From IMG/VR virus record IMGVR_UViG_3300023184_000025, positions 1-64,000 of that record: a stretch of DNA of 64,000 nt; one strand, 5' to 3'. The translations under genes were made by a program, and so were the position numbers. Positions 14,994 through 25,212 of this stretch are shown here, in pieces; the stretch's first letter is position 1; the number at the start of each line of letters is the position of its first letter. Below the pieces are notes generated by a model that did no database searches, was not told the origin of the DNA, and saw only the letters and a program-made list of their open reading frames with translations. The stretch comes from a virus.

Positions 14994-16127
14994 ATGAATG
15001 TTTTGATTCTCACTCCCGACCGTGTTGGCAGTACTCTACTACAACGATTAATCACTGTTTACATGAATGCACACGCATTTGATCAGCCTGTGATTAATTT
15101 ACATGAATTAACCAACGGCATTATGAAGTATTATAGCCCTACATTCAATCAAGAAGTGCTGGGCAAGTTTGAAGACCGACAAAAATGGGGGTATTATCAA
15201 ACTCTTGAAGAAATCACAGAACTTCTTGGCTCAGTTGAACATTATAAAACCACAAGACTAGCACATTATCATATTAAAAAACGACAGGACACTATTGCTA
15301 GTCAAGTTCCTTTTTACGAATACCTAAATCAAAATTTCTACATCATCAGTGCCCAACGAGACAATTTGTTTGAGCATGGACTCAGTTGGTGTATATCAAA
15401 CGAGTCAAAGAAATTAAATGTGTTTAGCCATCAAGAAAAAGTTGATGCATTTTCTAACATTTATAAAAATAAAATCAACGTTGATCCATTGGCGCTGATA
15501 AAATACCTTGACCAGTATGTTGAGTATCTGGCCTGGGTAGACAATCACTTTGACGTTAACTCGTATTTTAAATACGACAAAGATATGTCAAGACTTGAAG
15601 AGTACATACTTGGGCTGTCTATCTTTAGCCAGCAACCAAACAAAAGGTCCTGGAAAGACATCTTTGAACTAGAGTTTGCTGACTGGAACAAGTGTCATTA
15701 CCTAATCAGCGATCTAAGCGGAATCAGCACACAACTACCATCTGTTGACCATCCAAAGTTGACCTATGACGGAAAAGAATCCAACTTTGATAATGTGCAA
15801 CTACAAAGCCTGGCAAGAACAGAGATACCAAAGTCTTTGTCTGTGGTCGATCAACGGTTCTTAATAAAAAATGGCCCAGGGTATCAAAAAGCACACAATG
15901 CTATCAACCAGCTGGTAGAAAACAAAGTACTAGTTACGCCTGTGCCAATAAAACTGCAAACAATGCTGGAAAAGAAGTTATTAATTAATAATTTTTCTCA
16001 GTGTGTTGATGTGTATAACAAATGGTCAGAGTCAACAGGCATGGGTATTCAGTACTCTGATGAAGATATTGAGTTGTCAATAAAAGAAGAAATCAAAACC
16101 TGGCATGCTACTGCTTTGTTAAAGTAA
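14994..16127 (+). CDS. Sulfotransferase-like protein
   Basis: 377 residues from the ATG at 14994. The N-terminus MNVLILTPDRVGSTLLQRLI resembles the 5'-phosphosulfate-binding loop of PAPS-dependent sulfotransferases (PxRSGTTxL), and FYIISAQRDNLFEHGLSWCIS resembles the 3'-phosphate-binding Arg/Ser motif. The acceptor is unknown. It is one of the few plus-strand genes and overlaps the end of the convergent SGNH gene by 9 bp. A TATAAGTA box 7 nt before the ATG suggests a late promoter with almost no leader. An in-frame upstream extension passes through this promoter and is unlikely. Confidence 0.55.
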   Translation: MNVLILTPDRVGSTLLQRLITVYMNAHAFDQPVINLHELTNGIMKYYSPTFNQEVLGKFEDRQKWGYYQTLEEITELLGSVEHYKTTRLAHYHIKKRQDTIASQVPFYEYLNQNFYIISAQRDNLFEHGLSWCISNESKKLNVFSHQEKVDAFSNIYKNKINVDPLALIKYLDQYVEYLAWVDNHFDVNSYFKYDKDMSRLEEYILGLSIFSQQPNKRSWKDIFELEFADWNKCHYLISDLSGISTQLPSVDHPKLTYDGKESNFDNVQLQSLARTEIPKSLSVVDQRFLIKNGPGYQKAHNAINQLVENKVLVTPVPIKLQTMLEKKLLINNFSQCVDVYNKWSESTGMGIQYSDEDIELSIKEEIKTWHATALLK

Positions 16128-16964
16128 CTCTGTAATTTTGTCCACAAAGGCAGAGGCAGTTTTGATATCATAATGATATCCGTCCCGGGCAAGATCTAAT
16201 TTTTCAAATTCAGGAATAAATTGTACATCTGGCAATTGCTCTTGAAACATTGATTTAAAACCAGACGCACAGAAATTTGGAATAACGCTGTGAATTATGT
16301 TGCAGTTGCCTTTGTTTTCTTCTATCTTGTTAATACAATCAATAGTTAATGCTATGTCTGCTTCATCTGTGCTTTTGACAAAATGCAGTTTTAAATCCTC
16401 GTCACTGACGTTTGTCCAAGATTGATCAGAATTTTTTAATTCTTCTTGAATAAAGTTGGGTAGGATATCTATATCAATGACGTTGGGACATGCGGGCCAG
16501 GAAGAATCTTTTACATTGTTATAAAAGTCCTTCCACTTTTTATTTAAGACTGTTTGATATTCATTTTCTCTACGATGCAGATAACTCCAGTGTATGATCA
16601 CCATTTCAGGAACAATTTCTTCAATAACTGTTAATGCTTTTCTTGTAATCCATGAATTACTACCACCGTCCATGCTTACATTTACAATTCTTTGTTTCAA
16701 CTGAGACTGTAGTATATTTGGCCAAGTGTGAGATAACGGGCTTCCAATGCCCACAGTAAAGCTATCACCAATGCACCAAATTGATCTTTTTAAATCTACT
16801 GGCCATTCAGAATCTCTGAAGCCTCGACTGTTGTGTTTGTAATCTACAACAAATTTATATCTAGTAAAATGATTTTTATCTAGTGCCAATTTAATGTTGT
16901 CAATGCCACTGTATTCCCAACGTTGATTTATCCTACTAGGTAAAATAAAATCAGGTAAAATCAC
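16119..16964 (-). CDS. SGNH/GDSL-like hydrolase
   Basis: 281 residues from a GTG that overlaps the upstream stop (GTGA). Block I IWCIGDSFTVGIGS supplies the GDS nucleophile region; VSMDGGSNSW resembles block II; and the C-terminal DLARDGYHYDIKTA supplies the D-x-x-H pair, so the catalytic triad looks complete. Such enzymes deacylate sugars or lipids. It is the last gene of the six-gene operon with sulfotransferase-like proteins, so it may act on the same molecule. Confidence 0.65.
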   Translation of the reverse strand: MILPDFILPSRINQRWEYSGIDNIKLALDKNHFTRYKFVVDYKHNSRGFRDSEWPVDLKRSIWCIGDSFTVGIGSPLSHTWPNILQSQLKQRIVNVSMDGGSNSWITRKALTVIEEIVPEMVIIHWSYLHRRENEYQTVLNKKWKDFYNNVKDSSWPACPNVIDIDILPNFIQEELKNSDQSWTNVSDEDLKLHFVKSTDEADIALTIDCINKIEENKGNCNIIHSVIPNFCASGFKSMFQEQLPDVQFIPEFEKLDLARDGYHYDIKTASAFVDKITELL

Positions 16965-17824
16965 TCAAGACCCATGCTCTTACGAATTTTAGTTGCGCTG
17001 ATATCAGTTATTGATGAGTCAAATGACTCTTGTTCAATCTTATAGCCAACATCTCTACCATAGGTAATGTTTACAATGTTAGGTACAACCTGTATTTCAT
17101 ACTGTCCTTGATACAAAGTATCTAAGTCACGCCGTATGAAAGATTTGACTTTTTCAATTTCAAATGGGTTAGAGCCTTGCCACCCTTGACAGTCACGTAT
17201 TTGAATTACCACTTGCCCTGTCTTGGCAATAGCACGTTCAAACAAAGCTCGATGGCCAGCATGCCAGGGCTGCCAACGACCTAACATTTGTACAGTTTCT
17301 TTTTGCCAATCAAACACTGGCCGACGGCGATTTTCTAATATATGCGATCCAATAAACTCAGCCCATTTTTCAGCATTTTGTTCTGTAATTCTAAAGTCAT
17401 ATACTTCAGGCGGAACAAAGGCCTTGTTGGTATCTTCGTAACGGCCTTTATCAATGGTGTCAACCCAGATGGTCCAATCAGCTTTGAAATTGTTGCGCAT
17501 CTCTACCAATGGTGCAACAAAGTCACAGATCACATATTCTCCTGAGCACTCTATGGCAAATTGGAACATACGCAAACTTTGACGAATACGTCCAGCATCA
17601 GAAAAATCCCAATCGTTATACTTTTTACGAATGTCGTCGGCATTGAACCAATCAACACCTACATTCATAAAGTTGGGACCGGGTATTCCTTCATAATTCA
17701 TTACTCGACTGGGATTAATTTTCATTAAATCCCCATTGGTTTCAATATATTGTTTTAGTGCCTGTGCTAGATATGTTTTGCCTGCACCGGGCAAGCCCAT
17801 TATTAAAATACGTTGTGTGCTCAT
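16961..17824 (-). CDS. APS-kinase-like / nucleotidylyltransferase fusion (PAPS synthase-like or NadR-like)
   Basis: 287 residues from the ATG at 17824, which gives an ATGA overlap and puts AAGGA seven bases upstream. Residues 1-165 form a P-loop kinase: GLPGAGKT (10-17), DDIRKKYNDWDFS near 63 and DKGRYEDTNKAF, all like APS kinase. Residues 175-287 form an HxGH nucleotidylyltransferase with GRWQPWHAGH (182-191) and ISATKIR (275-281). Kinase-then-HxGH is the order of animal PAPS synthases, but the second domain reads more like NMN adenylyltransferase than ATP sulfurylase. So either PAPS production (for the neighbouring sulfotransferase-like genes) or nicotinamide riboside salvage is possible. 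Confidence 0.65.
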   Translation of the reverse strand: MSTQRILIMGLPGAGKTYLAQALKQYIETNGDLMKINPSRVMNYEGIPGPNFMNVGVDWFNADDIRKKYNDWDFSDAGRIRQSLRMFQFAIECSGEYVICDFVAPLVEMRNNFKADWTIWVDTIDKGRYEDTNKAFVPPEVYDFRITEQNAEKWAEFIGSHILENRRRPVFDWQKETVQMLGRWQPWHAGHRALFERAIAKTGQVVIQIRDCQGWQGSNPFEIEKVKSFIRRDLDTLYQGQYEIQVVPNIVNITYGRDVGYKIEQESFDSSITDISATKIRKSMGLE

Positions 17825-18447
17825 TTCCATTTCCTTGAAGAGTGTTTTGCTAAATCATCTGTGGGATGATAATCCACAGGTTGAAAGTATTTACGATTGG
17901 TATCATCTTGTAAAATTTTATTTAATACTGGGTCTTTAAAATCTATTGGGAATTCCAATTGCTTTGAAATTTGCCGCAAATAATTTTCTTTATAAAGATG
18001 CAGTAACTCATAACTTAGGAATACAGGACTCCATGTTGTTAATTTTTCATATTCTGCCAGTGCTATATCAAATGTGGGTTCGCCGCGCACACGAGTTTCT
18101 TGACAGTTTAATACATTACGATCTCTACCAATGATAGCAATCTTTACCTGTATGCCCAGACCCATTGCAGTGGCAGCAAAACGCACAATATTGGGCACAG
18201 TACGCTCACCGTTCATCATGTACGGTGTACTTACACTGGTCACAAAGTACTTGCATTCACCCCAGACAAACTCTTTTAATAGATCGGGGTTCTCCCAACA
18301 GGCCGCAAAGGGTTCTTGATCATGCCCTATCCAGTATTCGTGTAACAAGGCATGCCATGCATACACATCAGGGTGTAAGGCAAAGATCTTGCTCCATAAA
18401 TGATTTCCCGAACCCTGCGGTCCTGTCAGGATTAACAGAGTTTTCAT
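17821..18447 (-). CDS. Sulfotransferase-like P-loop protein
   Basis: 208 residues. LLILTGPQGSGNHLWSKIF at the N-terminus is a P-loop of the sulfotransferase type, and VKIAIIGRDRNVLNCQE fits the 3'-phosphate-binding strand-helix. The gene overlaps both neighbours by 4 bp, between the 2OG-oxygenase and the APS-kinase-like fusion. A kinase function cannot be excluded because the loop is not a canonical PxxSGTT. Confidence 0.55.
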   Translation of the reverse strand: MKTLLILTGPQGSGNHLWSKIFALHPDVYAWHALLHEYWIGHDQEPFAACWENPDLLKEFVWGECKYFVTSVSTPYMMNGERTVPNIVRFAATAMGLGIQVKIAIIGRDRNVLNCQETRVRGEPTFDIALAEYEKLTTWSPVFLSYELLHLYKENYLRQISKQLEFPIDFKDPVLNKILQDDTNRKYFQPVDYHPTDDLAKHSSRKWK

Positions 18448-19109
18448 CTTGGCAAATGAGCTAGAAATTCTTGTGTGCGATCAGTTATAACGCCTGTTAA
18501 TTGTAGCGTTACTCGGGGATGGTGCCCAGCATTAGCAGTCGAGTGTGGCATGTTGACCCAGTCAAATGTGCTGACATCACCGGAACGCCATTGATTCCAG
18601 TGATGGTTACCATATTCCCAGAACTGTCCAGGTTGCCAGTCTGTGAGCTGAACAAATATACGCATCACACGTGAGGGATCTTCAGGATTCCATTTCTGTA
18701 ATTTATCCATGTGTAGGTTCCAAACTTCCCCAGGCTGTTGCACATGAATACGTTCCATGCAGTCGTCTAGCGCAAACTGGTTGGAAATCTTTTTGAGCGA
18801 CTCGGGCATGTTCCAGTTTAAATGAGTGATAATTATTTTGGGGTCTACACCCACACGCTCTAGATCATATTCTTCTGCCACCAGGTCCTCACGTGGAGGC
18901 AACACACCCTCGCCTTTGTAACCACGTGTTTCCCAGGTGGCCGGCTTGGAATTGGCCACTATGTCAGCAACATCAGCTGACCACGTGGGTTCAATGTGTC
19001 CTAGATGTGCAATTACATCTTCAAAACGATCCAATCTTTTACTATCAAAATGGTATGTGCTGGTGCTTTTGGTGAAATCCCAACTGCTTTTAAATTCGTC
19101 TGTTATCAT
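18444..19109 (-). CDS. 2-oxoglutarate/Fe(II)-dependent oxygenase
   Basis: 221 residues. The C-terminal half has the double-stranded beta-helix pattern: H133 and D135 in NLHMDKLQKW, then RIFVQLTDWQPGQFW, H189 in NMPHSTANAG and R199 (HHPRVTLQLTG), giving the HxD...H iron triad and the Arg that binds 2-oxoglutarate. It resembles phage and bacterial aspartyl/prolyl-hydroxylase-like proteins. Substrate unknown. It lies between two sulfotransferase-like genes with ATGA overlaps on both sides. Confidence 0.72.
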   Translation of the reverse strand: MITDEFKSSWDFTKSTSTYHFDSKRLDRFEDVIAHLGHIEPTWSADVADIVANSKPATWETRGYKGEGVLPPREDLVAEEYDLERVGVDPKIIITHLNWNMPESLKKISNQFALDDCMERIHVQQPGEVWNLHMDKLQKWNPEDPSRVMRIFVQLTDWQPGQFWEYGNHHWNQWRSGDVSTFDWVNMPHSTANAGHHPRVTLQLTGVITDRTQEFLAHLPR

Positions 19110-19735
19110 ATTACTTTTACCCTTATGTCGTTTACTGCGTACTCTTGTGTGTATTCTGCGGGAGGTGCATCTATGCCCAGGGCCGCAGCCAGTCGTAGAT
19201 TGTTGTCCATTACAGGTTTATCATTGTATTTCCACCATGCGGCCAATATGTCTCGATTCTGGCTGCAAATGATCTGTGCCATGTTCTTTAAGTCTCGAAA
19301 ATACTCATGATAGTCAGGATATGTTATATCAAAATGCCCGCATTTGACCCACCAGCCCAGGCATGCGTCATCATTTCGATGCACAATTACAATGGGTGTT
19401 TCGGGGAATAGGTCGCGCAAATAGTCAATGTGATTTGAGAACACATGACTTTTGATAATACGCACACCCTTGGATTCTTTAAATTGAAATGGCTCAGCAA
19501 ATATTTCTTCTAGTTGCTGTCTGTTTAATGTTGTCAAATCCTCAGGCAGTGGGCTAATCATGCCTGGATCAAAGTACGCACCCAGATGCATGAGTTCCAT
19601 TTTGCCCGATGCATCATGATAGTAAGTCCATTCATCTCTATAGTCCGAACGATCAATGTCAGGACTATAGTAGATGTTTTTGACTACACTACTCCATTTT
19701 GAGCCCGGAGCACCGGCTACAAAGATATATTTCAT
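19106..19735 (-). CDS. Sulfotransferase-like P-loop protein
   Basis: 209 residues. KYIFVAGAPGSKWSSVVKNIY is a modified 5'-phosphosulfate loop, and PIVIVHRNDDACLGWW closely matches the sulfotransferase 3'-phosphate motif (RNPxDxxxS type), here with Cys for the Ser. IIKSHVFSNHIDYL resembles the segment that carries the catalytic His in cytosolic enzymes. It is the second gene of the operon, starting in the stop of the TctC-like gene. Confidence 0.6.
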   Translation of the reverse strand: MKYIFVAGAPGSKWSSVVKNIYYSPDIDRSDYRDEWTYYHDASGKMELMHLGAYFDPGMISPLPEDLTTLNRQQLEEIFAEPFQFKESKGVRIIKSHVFSNHIDYLRDLFPETPIVIVHRNDDACLGWWVKCGHFDITYPDYHEYFRDLKNMAQIICSQNRDILAAWWKYNDKPVMDNNLRLAAALGIDAPPAEYTQEYAVNDIRVKVI

Positions 19736-20715
19736 TCTTTACTTAAATCAATTCGACTCAACACAGGAATAAATGCCGCACGTAATTCGTCCATTTGCTT
19801 TCGAAGCCCTGCAGGAGTCAACTCATCTTCAGCATAGAAAATAACATTGGCTTCTCTGTATTCTGCATATTCTCGGCTACGAACCGCGGCACTAAATTGT
19901 TGTTGATACCAGGCAACAATTTCTCGATCTGTCCCAGGAGGCAATTGTATACTCCAGGCCGCATATACATTGATGCCAGGGGCAATGGTGTTCAACAACG
20001 GGACACCAGGAAACTGTGCCATCTTTTGTGTGCCTGTGAACCCAATAGGCTTTACCTTGCCTGCGTCAACCAGAGATTTGGCCACTGTAATCGGTATAAT
20101 AGCAAATTCAGTACCTGTTTTGCCGTCATAACTTGCGGCACTGGTTACTGCTGGCATAGGGCCGTTGAACCTTACAGGATTAACCATGTCTCTATTGCCT
20201 TTTCCTTTGTCCATCAAGTATTCATATGCTGTGCGATGTGCTCCACCGCCGACTGCAATATTAATTGTTCTGCCTGACTGAATATACTTCACAAACTCCT
20301 GTGGAGTATTAACACCGCTCTTGACACCGGCCACTAATACCAATGGTGATTTGCCCATGGTCAACACATCAATGAATGAGTCGTAATTGTATTTCTTTAT
20401 ATTCTTTTCCCAAATATCATTTGTTACATAACTGCTCATGTGGCTGGGCAAGTTAATAGTATGGCCGTCATTGACTGCTTCCAAAAACCGGTTGTTGGCA
20501 ATAACCGAATCGGCTCCGGGAATGTTTTGCACAACATAAACAAATTTAGGGTTTTGTTTCTGTACAATATCCGCCAGTTTACGAAAGGCCATTTCATTGC
20601 CAGCACCGGGTGTGTTACCAATATACACAGTGACAGGCTTAGTTGGTTCCCATGCGTGAACTAGTGTGCTTGCAGTAACAAGCAATAAAGCAACAAACTT
20701 TTTTAATGTACTCAT
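19732..20715 (-). CDS. TctC/Bug-family periplasmic solute-binding protein
   Basis: 327 residues with a signal peptide ending near HAW. WEPTKPVTVYIGNTPGAGNE, MAFRKLADIVQ, VVQNIPGADSVIANN, a long alpha/beta body with LVLVAGVKSG, and INVYAAWSIQLPPGTDRE are typical of the tripartite tricarboxylate transporter binding proteins (Bug proteins), which are greatly expanded in Betaproteobacteria. Such proteins capture carboxylates in the periplasm for a TctAB permease, which is not encoded here, so it would serve a host permease. It leads the six-gene operon; AAGGAG precedes the ATG. A late box and a 5' hairpin lie upstream. Confidence 0.88.
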   Translation of the reverse strand: MSTLKKFVALLLVTASTLVHAWEPTKPVTVYIGNTPGAGNEMAFRKLADIVQKQNPKFVYVVQNIPGADSVIANNRFLEAVNDGHTINLPSHMSSYVTNDIWEKNIKKYNYDSFIDVLTMGKSPLVLVAGVKSGVNTPQEFVKYIQSGRTINIAVGGGAHRTAYEYLMDKGKGNRDMVNPVRFNGPMPAVTSAASYDGKTGTEFAIIPITVAKSLVDAGKVKPIGFTGTQKMAQFPGVPLLNTIAPGINVYAAWSIQLPPGTDREIVAWYQQQFSAAVRSREYAEYREANVIFYAEDELTPAGLRKQMDELRAAFIPVLSRIDLSKE

Positions 20716-20740
20716 ATTATCTCCTTAAATATACTTAATT

Positions 20741-20777
20741 AAAAAAACAAGACCAGTAAAATTTTTACAGGTCTTGT
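20741..20777 (-). promoter_or_regulatory. Stem-loop with T tract in the TctC operon leader
   Basis: On the minus strand ACAAGACC pairs with GGTCTTGT, with GTAAAA/TTTTAC pairing inside, and seven Ts follow. The late-type GATAAATA box at 20783-20790 would start transcription at about 20777, the first base of the stem. It could be a 5' mRNA stabiliser, an attenuator, or a terminator for antisense transcripts coming through the plus-strand methyltransferase gene. Confidence 0.6.
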
Positions 20778-20782
20778 AAAAT

Positions 20783-20790
20783 TATTTATC
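20783..20790 (-). promoter_or_regulatory. T4-type late promoter box for the TctC operon
   Basis: GATAAATA on the minus strand, one mismatch from the T4 late consensus TATAAATA, 68 bp upstream of the TctC-like start. The expected +1 is six bases downstream, at the hairpin described separately. Confidence 0.5.
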
Positions 20791-20808: not shown

Positions 20809-21534
20809 ATGAATACCAAAATTTTTGACTTATTAACTAAAAATTTGCAGGCCGCCTTTAATTTACCCAAGTATCAGAGAATTCTTGACACCATTGGGCC
20901 GGACACAGAAGTTGACAAACTTCCTTGGACTCCGGCTAGATATCGTAAATTCAAAGACGCTGTGGATGCTGAATTGCAGTTGTCCTGCGATTATGTTGGT
21001 ACATTAAAGAACATAACAGCTGATCTCAGCGAACGTTATATCAATCACTTTTTTGGCGAAATCTGGAAACCCAGAACTGGCGACTATGACTACACAGGCT
21101 GGCAGTTGGCTGAAGAAATTAATCAACTCAATCCACATAGTGTACTAGATGTTGGTTGTGGATATCATCCTTTTAAAGGTCGTATTAACAACGTTGTTGG
21201 TATTGATCCCTATAACAACTGCGCCGATTACATGGTTGACATTCTGGACTATGCTGGTAGTCACGATGTTATTATTGCTTTGGGATCAATTAACTTTAAT
21301 AGTCGTGATGAGATTGAATCACGCTTTGCTAAGTGTGTTGATCTATTAGAATCAGGCGGCAAATTTTATCTACGAGCAAACCCTGGAATCACACACAAAA
21401 CAGGACCATATGTTGACATATTCCCCTGGAGTTTTGAAATAGTCAAAGAGTTTGCTGACAAGTACAAGTTAAAGTTGTTAGAGTTTAAAAAAGACAACAA
21501 CGATAGACTGTACTTTGTGTATTCTAAACCTTGA
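20809..21534 (+). CDS. Class I SAM-dependent methyltransferase
   Basis: 241 residues. The SAM-binding motif HSVLDVGCGYHPFKGRI sits at about 112-128, followed by NVVGIDPYNN (acidic end of strand 2), DYMVDILDYAGSHDVIIALGSINF and a C-terminal LLESGGKFYLRANPG. About 100 residues precede the Rossmann core. Substrate unknown. It is a plus-strand gene between minus-strand units and overlaps the convergent SGNH gene by 11 bp. AAAGG lies 11 bases before the ATG. Confidence 0.75.
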   Translation: MNTKIFDLLTKNLQAAFNLPKYQRILDTIGPDTEVDKLPWTPARYRKFKDAVDAELQLSCDYVGTLKNITADLSERYINHFFGEIWKPRTGDYDYTGWQLAEEINQLNPHSVLDVGCGYHPFKGRINNVVGIDPYNNCADYMVDILDYAGSHDVIIALGSINFNSRDEIESRFAKCVDLLESGGKFYLRANPGITHKTGPYVDIFPWSFEIVKEFADKYKLKLLEFKKDNNDRLYFVYSKP

Positions 21535-22165
21535 TATCTTTGATTAAATCAAAGGCAGCCAAATGAGCTTGTTCTAAAGGGTGTAGTGTGTTGCTAATAG
21601 GATATCCTTTGACCTGGCTCCACTCTAAGAAATTCTTATCTTCAAACTTGGTCATGTAAGGACGTACATAGTTTTGTAGGTCCATAATTCCTGGCGGTGC
21701 ATGATATTTACTGTCAAAGGTTAAGTCGTCCATGTAGGTCATTATAAATGGACAGTTCTTTTCTTTAAGTGTGTCTATGGCCAAGCGCATACACATTAGA
21801 GTATTGAGTTTATCTCTGTACTCAGAGTGTAGGTTTTTAAAATAAAAAGTAGAATTGGTATCTTTTTCAATAGGGCGTAGTGTTAGCCAATCATCTTTGT
21901 GATCAGTGTGATCAAATCGATCAATCCAGGTCCATCCGATCACAAACAAGCTGTGTTCATTGCAGCCTGCTTGATTTAGCACACGGTCAAGTATGCTGAG
22001 ATTGCCAATGCCTGGGCGGGCATAACAAATATATTGGTAATCTAAATGATTAGCAAGATGTGCGGGCCAGGTTAGTTTACTGGGTGTGGCCCAAAGAGCA
22101 CCATTTCCGTCGTCAGATAAATCTGTTCCAAAAATGAAACTGCACCCAAAGCTTTTGAGTTTCAT
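21524..22165 (-). CDS. SGNH/GDSL-like hydrolase
   Basis: 213 residues. KSFGCSFIFGTDLSD is a block I variant with Cys-Ser in place of Asp-Ser, and SNTLHPLEQAHLAAFDLI supplies a C-terminal His in the block V position, so an SGNH fold is likely. YARPGIGNLS resembles block II. Similar proteins are common among T4-like marine phages. Substrate unknown. Confidence 0.5.
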   Translation of the reverse strand: MKLKSFGCSFIFGTDLSDDGNGALWATPSKLTWPAHLANHLDYQYICYARPGIGNLSILDRVLNQAGCNEHSLFVIGWTWIDRFDHTDHKDDWLTLRPIEKDTNSTFYFKNLHSEYRDKLNTLMCMRLAIDTLKEKNCPFIMTYMDDLTFDSKYHAPPGIMDLQNYVRPYMTKFEDKNFLEWSQVKGYPISNTLHPLEQAHLAAFDLIKDIKV

Positions 22166-24225: not shown

Positions 24226-25212
24226 ATGATTAAAATAGACCAAATCCGTGCATTACACATTGAACTTAGTTCTCGTTGCAATGCACGATGTCCCATGTGT
24301 ATGCGTAACTACCGGGGCGTGGATTTTAATGGAGGGTATCCGTTGACTGAGTTGTCACTCAGTGATATTCAACACATATTCCCTTCACACTTTTTAAAAC
24401 AAATTAACCGTATTAACTTTAACGGAAATCTTGGAGATTTTAGTCTGGCCAGCGATGCGTTGGAAATAGTTGACTACTTTTTATCTAATAGTACTGCTCA
24501 AATACAGATTGAAACAAATGGTAGTACACGTTCTACTGCCTGGTGGCAGAAATTAAACAACCATCGAATTAAAGTATTATTTGCATTAGACGGACTCAAA
24601 GACACACACAATCTGTACCGTCAGAACACTGATTGGGAAAAAATAATAGATAATGCTGTGGCGTTAATCCAATCAGGCGGAAATGCTGTTTGGAAATTTA
24701 TTCCGTTTAAACATAACCAACATCAATTTAATAGTTGTCAGACACTGAGCCGTCAGTTGGGATTTTCAGATTTTACAGTACGAGATCAGGGACGTAATCA
24801 AGGACCGGTATTTACAAGAAACGGCGAGTTTAGTCATTGGCTTGGCGATGCACAATCTGACATACCCGATTCTAATGCTTTAATTGAAGATCATTTGACC
24901 TGGTTTGATTATAAAAAGAAAATTCCCTGGGTTAATGATAATGCACAAATAGATTGTGGCCATATAAAACAAAAAGAGATTTATATAGCTGCCGACGGAT
25001 CTGTGTATCCTTGTTGTTATCTGGGATATTTTCCAAAGACAATGCATCAACCAGGAAACAGTCAATTTAAAGATCTTGTCAAAGAAAACAATGCATTAGA
25101 ATACAGTCTAGAGCATTGCATTGATTGGTTTGACCAGGTAGAAAAAACCTGGACTTTACCCAGTGTGGCACAGGGTAAGTTGTATACGTGTGTTAGTGCC
25201 TGCGGACACTAA
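24226..25212 (+). CDS. Radical SAM enzyme with SPASM/twitch-like C-terminus
   Basis: 328 residues. HIELSSRCNARCPMCMRNYRG places C18, C22 and C25 in the CxxxCxxC motif that binds the SAM-cleaving 4Fe-4S cluster; FNGNLGDF and IQIETNGSTRS follow the TIM-barrel pattern. IDCGHIKQKEIYIAADGSVYPCCYLGY and later Cys residues (IDWF..., YTCVSACGH) look like an auxiliary cluster domain. Substrate (peptide, sugar or nucleic acid) unknown. The plus-strand gene begins five bases after a late promoter box and ends in a hairpin. Confidence 0.85.
   Translation: MIKIDQIRALHIELSSRCNARCPMCMRNYRGVDFNGGYPLTELSLSDIQHIFPSHFLKQINRINFNGNLGDFSLASDALEIVDYFLSNSTAQIQIETNGSTRSTAWWQKLNNHRIKVLFALDGLKDTHNLYRQNTDWEKIIDNAVALIQSGGNAVWKFIPFKHNQHQFNSCQTLSRQLGFSDFTVRDQGRNQGPVFTRNGEFSHWLGDAQSDIPDSNALIEDHLTWFDYKKKIPWVNDNAQIDCGHIKQKEIYIAADGSVYPCCYLGYFPKTMHQPGNSQFKDLVKENNALEYSLEHCIDWFDQVEKTWTLPSVAQGKLYTCVSACGH

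Follow-up and report, generated by a model that had tools for sequence, protein, structure and literature searches.

A conserved operon of a very large bacterial virus with a compact kinase–nucleotidylyltransferase fusion and a possible role in sulfation

In animal synthetases of 3'-phosphoadenosine 5'-phosphosulfate (PAPS), the kinase domain comes first, and phosphoramidate biosynthesis in Campylobacter involves a homologue of adenosine 5'-phosphosulfate (APS) kinase, a point that our literature search did not confirm. Here we analyse a six-gene operon in the first 64,000 bases (the window) of IMG/VR virus record IMGVR_UViG_3300023184_000025, which encodes a kinase/nucleotidylyltransferase fusion, FUS, that shares the domain order of the animal enzymes and reverses that of NadR. 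Phage enzymes for the salvage of nicotinamide adenine dinucleotide (NAD) have been reviewed, and that review reports that phages carry NadR, a fusion of a kinase with nicotinamide mononucleotide (NMN) adenylyltransferase (NMNAT) (PMC9503650). In another paper, cysC and cysNC are given as unvalidated viral genes (PMC12713726), and a third describes tctA and 2-oxoglutarate (2OG)-Fe(II) oxygenase genes, of unknown role there, on SUP05 viral contigs (PMC4164917). Our literature search, which left most subscription journals outside, found neither a phage PAPS synthetase built like FUS nor an operon that combines TctC with sulfotransferases.

We consider it probable, though by no means assured, that the operon is a viral module for sulfation, conserved among relatives and equipped with a compact enzyme that makes PAPS. 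The record containing the window has 345,154 bases, comes from a very large bacterial virus and encodes a T4-like clamp loader (PHROG 168, E = 7.9e-74). Six minus-strand open reading frames (ORFs) follow one another in the order TctC, ST1, OG, ST2, FUS and SGNH at 16119-20715; a preliminary description of the sequence had proposed this operon, and both the ORFs and the conservation of gene order bear it out. The start that it gave for the operon stands, whereas its end, 20790, lies 75 bp beyond the start of TctC. The 4-bp overlaps it described are present at four junctions, but ST2 and FUS overlap by 10 bp when FUS is read from its first ATG, and by 4 bp if the ATG two codons later is used. 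ST3, on the plus strand, is convergent with the end of the SGNH gene. The genes concerned are as follows.

19732..20715, minus strand: TctC-type solute-binding protein, 327 residues, with a signal-peptide-like N-terminus and a Pfam TctC match
19106..19735, minus strand: ST1, sulfotransferase-like, 209 residues, Sulfotransfer_3 just below cut-off, invariant KSH and R120
18444..19109, minus strand: OG, 2OG-Fe(II) oxygenase-like, 221 residues, invariant H133-x-D135, H189 and R199
17821..18447, minus strand: ST2, sulfotransferase-like, 208 residues, profile match to Pfam-positive sulfotransferases
16961-17830, minus strand: FUS, kinase/nucleotidylyltransferase fusion (kinase half and HxGH half)
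17318..17830, minus strand: FUS kinase half, residues 1-171, APS-kinase-like by model fold and APS-site residues
16961..17317, minus strand: FUS nucleotidylyltransferase half, residues 172-289, HxGH type by motifs and model fold
16119..16964, minus strand: SGNH hydrolase, variable member, 281 residues, GTG start, with Ser, Gly, Asn and DxxH
14994..16127 (from ATG), plus strand: ST3, possibly sulfotransferase-like, 377 residues, profile match
20809..21534, plus strand: MT, divergent methyltransferase-like gene and constant neighbour, 241 residues, DVGCG by eye, Pfam E of 0.07 only

Judged from its sequence and a predicted structure, the kinase half of FUS is APS-kinase-like at the acceptor site and unusual on the ATP side, and we refrain from classing it among the standard APS kinases. 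FUS matches the Pfam family APS_kinase (E = 7.1e-5; 23.3 bits, above the cut-off of 21.1) and PHROG 10255 'kinase' (E = 8.7e-46), and a profile search of the PDB with the kinase half gives E = 1.3e-14 for the best APS kinase. An AlphaFold2 model of this half, built from 56 rows, has a mean predicted local distance difference test score (pLDDT) of 90.4. Ranks 1-30 of the VIA fold ranking are taken by APS kinases and by APS-kinase-type domains from fungal ATP sulfurylase and from bifunctional enzymes (Z 18.7-15.9; best match with 146 residues aligned at a root-mean-square deviation of 2.2), and gluconate kinase comes next with Z 14.9. In Mycobacterium tuberculosis CysC, the APS-binding residues are Asp480, Arg483, Phe492, Arg497 and Phe576 (PMC4373884). 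The first four correspond to D65, R68, F76 and R81 of the kinase half, which are kept in 56/56 relatives, and position 131, the equivalent of Phe576, is Tyr or Phe in 56/56. Fold, profile and APS-site residues thus agree with the preliminary description, which had taken this half for an APS kinase.

The HxGH half, about 115 residues long, contains the motifs GRWQPWHxGH, NPF, YGRDVGY and ISATKIR. Across 56 aligned sequences, GRxQPxHxGH and the C-terminal S/T-x-x-R motif are invariant or nearly so; at the YGRDVGY site, GR and the following VGY are invariant, and the residue between them is Asp in 44 sequences and Gly in 12. A GRD motif is known from ATP sulfurylases as well. The model of this half alone has a mean pLDDT of 88.5. 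From NPF to the S/T-x-x-R motif there are 57 residues versus 80 in MJ0541, a shortfall of about 23 in the segment on the NMN side. The ATP sulfurylase proposed earlier for this half is not borne out by sequence: PF01747 has no match in FUS or in any of 45 records, and the sequence is most like NMNAT, with archaeal NMNAT and NadM as its relatives on that side by profile. No ATP sulfurylase is among the 50 matches listed in the fold search, which does not count against such a fold.

TctC relatives lie at 35 viral-contig loci (largest contig, 525 kb), while a search of the annotated phage collection with a threshold of E 1e-5 found none. Before merging, many TctC loci stem from overlapping contigs; merging at a TctC identity of at least 97% reduced 48 loci to 36, and setting aside 10 with short flanks left 26. 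At these 26 non-redundant loci, MT (within 7 kb), ST1 and ST2 are each found 23 times, OG 21 times and FUS 19 times, with ST1, OG and ST2 together at 20 loci and all five genes at 13. The order of OG and ST2 is swapped at some loci, and SGNH and ST3 were matched at few; the SGNH gene is real but a variable member of the operon. From these per-gene counts, the core consists of MT and, divergent from it, TctC-ST1-OG-ST2, usually with FUS, and a chance arrangement is excluded because the gene order is kept in other contigs. The preliminary description had named a lack of co-occurrence in relatives as fatal to its sulfation idea, and these counts uphold co-occurrence.

A second sample, picked independently of FUS, comprised 44 records that carry the clamp loader and measure roughly 40 kb or longer. 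FUS is fused in 13 of them, kinase and nucleotidylyltransferase are close but separate genes in 7 (following ST2 in two records), and the kinase half stands alone in 4; in the remainder, other nucleotidylyltransferases are matched only weakly or nothing is matched at all. Strong matches to ST2 occur in 14/44 records, and 13 of those 14 have the kinase (Fisher p = 8e-4; p values from this sample are too small, since kinship and near-duplicate records, e.g. G002-G005, are ignored).

FUS also occurs beyond the operon, with at least 599 related stretches in viral contigs; a scan with the FUS relative of phage DLP6 gave 139 more, some perhaps identical to the first set. Among 191 non-redundant FUS loci, DUF2061 is near in 38, and 87 have a sulfotransferase-like gene within eight genes, a count that is descriptive and carries no test because the profiles were partly built from such neighbours. 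In a second phage group (L193:4381-5984 and relatives; 12 loci), two tandem paralogous sulfotransferase-like genes stand directly before FUS. A separate small nucleotidylyltransferase gene of the CTP_transf_like type is near FUS in 20/191 loci (e.g. L035:3544-4035).

Proximity was tested with PF13469 in 50 FUS records of 31 kb or more, which were selected and not random; TctC carriers were meant to be left out, but L167, L172 and L185 were in. PF13469 is matched in 19/50 records, and the nearest match lies less than 5 kb from FUS in 15 of the 19 and less than 8 kb in 18. The expectation within 5 kb is 3.8, and none of 20,000 random placements reaches 15; without L172, the count within 5 kb is 14/18. 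The closeness of kinase and sulfotransferases seen in the window by the preliminary description therefore holds beyond it.

Five of 50,697 deposited phage records contain FUS: four Casjensviridae and DLP6. In 4/4 of these Casjensviridae phages, a Sulfotransfer_4-type gene lies two genes upstream of FUS (E = 1.2e-5, 8.3e-6 and 6e-5, above cut-off, and 8.6e-4, below it), and full-length relatives of this gene occur in only these four of the 50,697 records; two records of phage FoX4 match it over half its length. The four count little as independent cases because they are close relatives of each other. Sulfotransfer_4, NADAR and FUS genes stand in a row in these cultured phages, for instance in Stenotrophomonas phage Suzuki (L378:2975-4735), and FUS there had been annotated as a hypothetical protein or kinase; Bhz60 is another cultured phage with the pair. 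The FUS neighbours in DLP6 are a 2OG-Fe(II) oxygenase and a metallophosphatase.

DUF2061 provides a link to bacterial sulfate metabolism. In a survey of 198 bacterial genomes from one phylum, with loci of about 3 kb or less each, DUF2061 occurs in 12 genomes at 13 loci. A PF01507 (CysD/CysH-type) gene lies beside it at 5/13 loci, an APS kinase ORF is near at a sixth, and at 3/13 it is fused to an APS kinase (APS_kinase E = 8e-46, 9.9e-54 and 4.9e-38):

L369:1474-2193: DUF2061-APS kinase fusion beside a PF01507 gene
L372:955-1698: DUF2061-APS kinase fusion beside a PF01507 gene
L377:937-1683: DUF2061-APS kinase fusion beside a PF01507 gene

These loci connect DUF2061 with sulfate activation, and by way of DUF2061 the phage pair is connected with it as well. 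PAPS reductase, classical ATP sulfurylase and NadV were each found in 0/45 records, many of which are fragments, so that these absences are soft. The lack of PAPS reductase speaks against cysteine synthesis as the role of the genes, and a separate ATP sulfurylase as the source of APS was likewise met in none of the 45.

ST1 matches Sulfotransfer_3 with E = 1.3e-5 (26.0 bits, slightly below the cut-off of 27), and its relatives exceed the cut-off in 4/44 records. K, S and H as well as R120 are invariant in 24 aligned ST1 sequences, and profile comparisons of ST1 give an E of only 0.0066 against family A8 and 0.023 against ST2. ST2 compares with a Pfam-positive sulfotransferase family at E = 1.1e-5 (probability 82), while a control against OG gives E = 0.49. 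For ST3, a profile match to family A9 over its first ~90 residues (E = 1.7e-4, probability 50), with no match to A8, weakly suggests a sulfotransferase-like protein. OG appears to be 2OG-Fe(II) oxygenase-like, its HxD...H...R pattern being invariant in 22 aligned sequences; it has no significant PDB match in a profile search. In SGNH, the Ser, Gly, Asn and DxxH are kept in 10 aligned sequences, and Pfam gives weak GDSL matches only. A further gene at 21524-22165 on the minus strand looks SGNH-like by eye, without Pfam support, and its counterparts in relatives are often upstream of MT. A radical SAM/SPASM protein is encoded near PhoH and the module at 24226-25212 on the plus strand (Radical_SAM E = 1.4e-7).

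The TctC product belongs to Pfam TctC (E = 2.9e-18; 66.8 bits versus a cut-off of 27), and its PDB matches are TctC, Bug and terephthalate-binding proteins, with E values down to 4.7e-21. A single distant relative (22% identity) emerged when bacterial genomes were scanned once, by a pattern-based method, with the alignment of TctC. The N-terminus is signal-peptide-like by eye in 24/24 aligned rows. TctA has no match in this record (TctB was not searched for); in the clamp-loader sample, this TctC type and TctA each occur in 16/44 records and never both in one. Phage-encoded TctA permeases (PF01970, E about 1e-90) are found at L352:8701-10140, L353:3135-4589 and L351:1605-3116, where they adjoin OG, ST2, kinase or nucleotidylyltransferase genes; in all, 16 of 45 records encode TctA. 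L353 has consecutive genes for TctA, a TctC-like protein, OG, kinase, DUF2061 and nucleotidylyltransferase; L351 has the order TctC-like, TctA, OG, ST2, kinase, nucleotidylyltransferase; L352 has TctA, TctC-like, ST2, kinase, nucleotidylyltransferase, OG; and L350 has ST1, TctC, kinase, nucleotidylyltransferase and DUF2061. There are thus two arrangements in which TctC and a transporter accompany these same enzymes. In relatives with TctA, the second TctC-type protein has neither a Pfam nor a PDB match and compares with this TctC at E = 4.3e-7 over 105 columns including the signal peptide, and we call it TctC-like only. An ORF at L351 3113-4351 looks amidinotransferase-like by eye but is without a Pfam or NCBIfam match, and we claim no identity for it. 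Uptake by the binding protein, as suggested earlier, is partly supported, by the signal-peptide-like N-terminus and by TctA beside the same genes in relatives, but this record has no TctA match.

If the module acts in sulfation, the kinase half of FUS would make PAPS by phosphorylating the 3' position of APS, and the small HxGH half would supply APS from ATP and sulfate; FUS would then be a PAPS synthetase with a new architecture. ST1 and ST2, and perhaps ST3, would use this PAPS to sulfate an acceptor, which OG would hydroxylate and SGNH would trim in some phages. Once exported, TctC would deliver a small carboxylate to a permease, which the host would provide in this phage and which relatives would encode themselves as TctA. 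Gene order, conservation, the kinase fold with its APS-site residues and the closeness to sulfotransferases and DUF2061 are observed; all catalytic steps are inferred, as are the acceptor and what TctC binds, and for the acceptor we can only guess at an acid that is imported or some component of the host envelope. The weakest step is the nucleotidylyltransferase half, which most likely makes APS given its kinase partner, DUF2061 and the absence of another sulfurylase. Tentatively, and with a confidence that stops somewhat short of even, we propose that sulfate adenylyltransferases include a new, minimal class, derived from an NMNAT-like ancestor and represented by this half. Phages would then activate sulfate in a way of their own, and this half, fused to the lid-less APS kinase or encoded beside it, would make PAPS with which phage enzymes sulfate a molecule that is imported or belongs to the envelope. 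In a bolder form, the donor would be a 3'-phosphoadenylyl compound different from PAPS, with some other group moved by the 'sulfotransferases'. The sulfation idea of the preliminary description is thus partly supported; its further points, that all the enzymes act on a single molecule and that deacylation takes part, stay conjectural, the SGNH gene being no constant member.

A number of findings weigh against a sulfation module. In the kinase half, the first (Mg-side) Asp of LDGD is Asn in 55/56 sequences and Glu in one, and about 19 lid residues are missing, including the catalytic Lys and the ATP-stacking Arg. The fold search with the HxGH half ties phosphopantetheine adenylyltransferases (PPAT) with NMNATs (Z 11.0-10.3), its profile is closest to NMNAT (E = 2.9e-10, a match confined to the first ~70 residues), and NCBIfam NMNAT models rank first, far below cut-off (25.9 bits versus 127, and lower). 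ST1 and ST2 have no PDB match by profile search, and ST2, ST3 and OG have no credible Pfam match. FUS is absent from 7/26 TctC loci, the association of TctC with kinase presence in the 44 clamp-loader records reaches p = 0.06 only, and 31/50 FUS records have no PF13469 match, with the match lying 48 kb from FUS in one record. In the four Casjensviridae, a NADAR gene stands directly before FUS, between it and the Sulfotransfer_4 gene, and DLP6 has no sulfotransferase among the FUS neighbours tested.

The alternative that survives best is a true APS kinase that uses host APS, with an HxGH half that transfers AMP or CMP to a different small phosphate, perhaps on the way to the sugar or lipid that is sulfated. 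We regard this as unlikely. HxGH enzymes as a class make nucleoside diphosphate-linked compounds, this half has no proven sulfate-specific feature, the additional CTP_transf_like gene occurs near FUS in 20/191 loci, and four further records of the 44 have the kinase half alone; on the other hand, the halves are fused or close in 20/44 records (13 fused, 7 split), as expected of consecutive steps.

FUS could also be a nicotinamide riboside kinase/NMNAT that restores NAD after a host NAD-depleting defence, with the sulfotransferases as unrelated neighbours. The GRxQPxHxGH motif, the profile closeness to archaeal NMNAT and NadM, the NADAR gene beside FUS in four cultured phages and the kinase–NMNAT fusion NadR known from phages (PMC9503650) all fit this role, which we nevertheless find distinctly improbable. 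The kinase half is APS-kinase-like down to its APS-site residues, the segment expected to face NMN is short compared with MJ0541, and NADAR is found in 421 phage records versus FUS in 5. Sulfate activation is favoured over NAD salvage, the second option of the preliminary description, because of the nearby sulfotransferases, DUF2061 and the lack of NadV, PAPS reductase and classical ATP sulfurylase in the 45 records. An island of loosely related auxiliary genes that are neighbours by chance and share no pathway is slightly less probable again, even with a variable neighbour order in which FUS, SGNH and ST3 come and go, as TctC-ST1-OG-ST2 is kept at 20/26 loci with very short junctions and FUS-sulfotransferase spacing is far closer than in random placement, a control that is itself compatible with a general auxiliary-gene island.

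FUS has at least 599 relatives in viral contigs, yet only 5 of 50,697 deposited phage records contain it. If FUS makes PAPS, uncultured phages would commonly carry out sulfation, and sulfate would have a further, small activating enzyme that is new. Because four Casjensviridae phages with the gene pair are in culture, the question can already be put to the test.

Like animal PAPSS and the Aquifex and Thiobacillus sulfurylase/APS kinases, FUS joins an APS-kinase domain to a nucleotidylyltransferase of the HxxH type; unlike these bifunctional synthetases, its nucleotidylyltransferase has only ~115 residues, an NMNAT-like motif and no PF01747 match, and most of the kinase lid is missing. With NadR (NMN adenylyltransferase/nicotinamide riboside kinase), it shares an HxGH half with the GRxQPxHxGH motif and a P-loop kinase, but the kinase half of FUS is APS-kinase-like. 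For PHROG 10255, the family matched by FUS, no function is stated beyond 'kinase'. Phages link DUF2061 and APS kinase as do the bacterial fusions beside CysD-type genes, with a small HxGH protein in place of CysD/CysN. The SUP05 viral contigs carry the same gene types, which here share a single conserved operon with sulfotransferases and a kinase/nucleotidylyltransferase.

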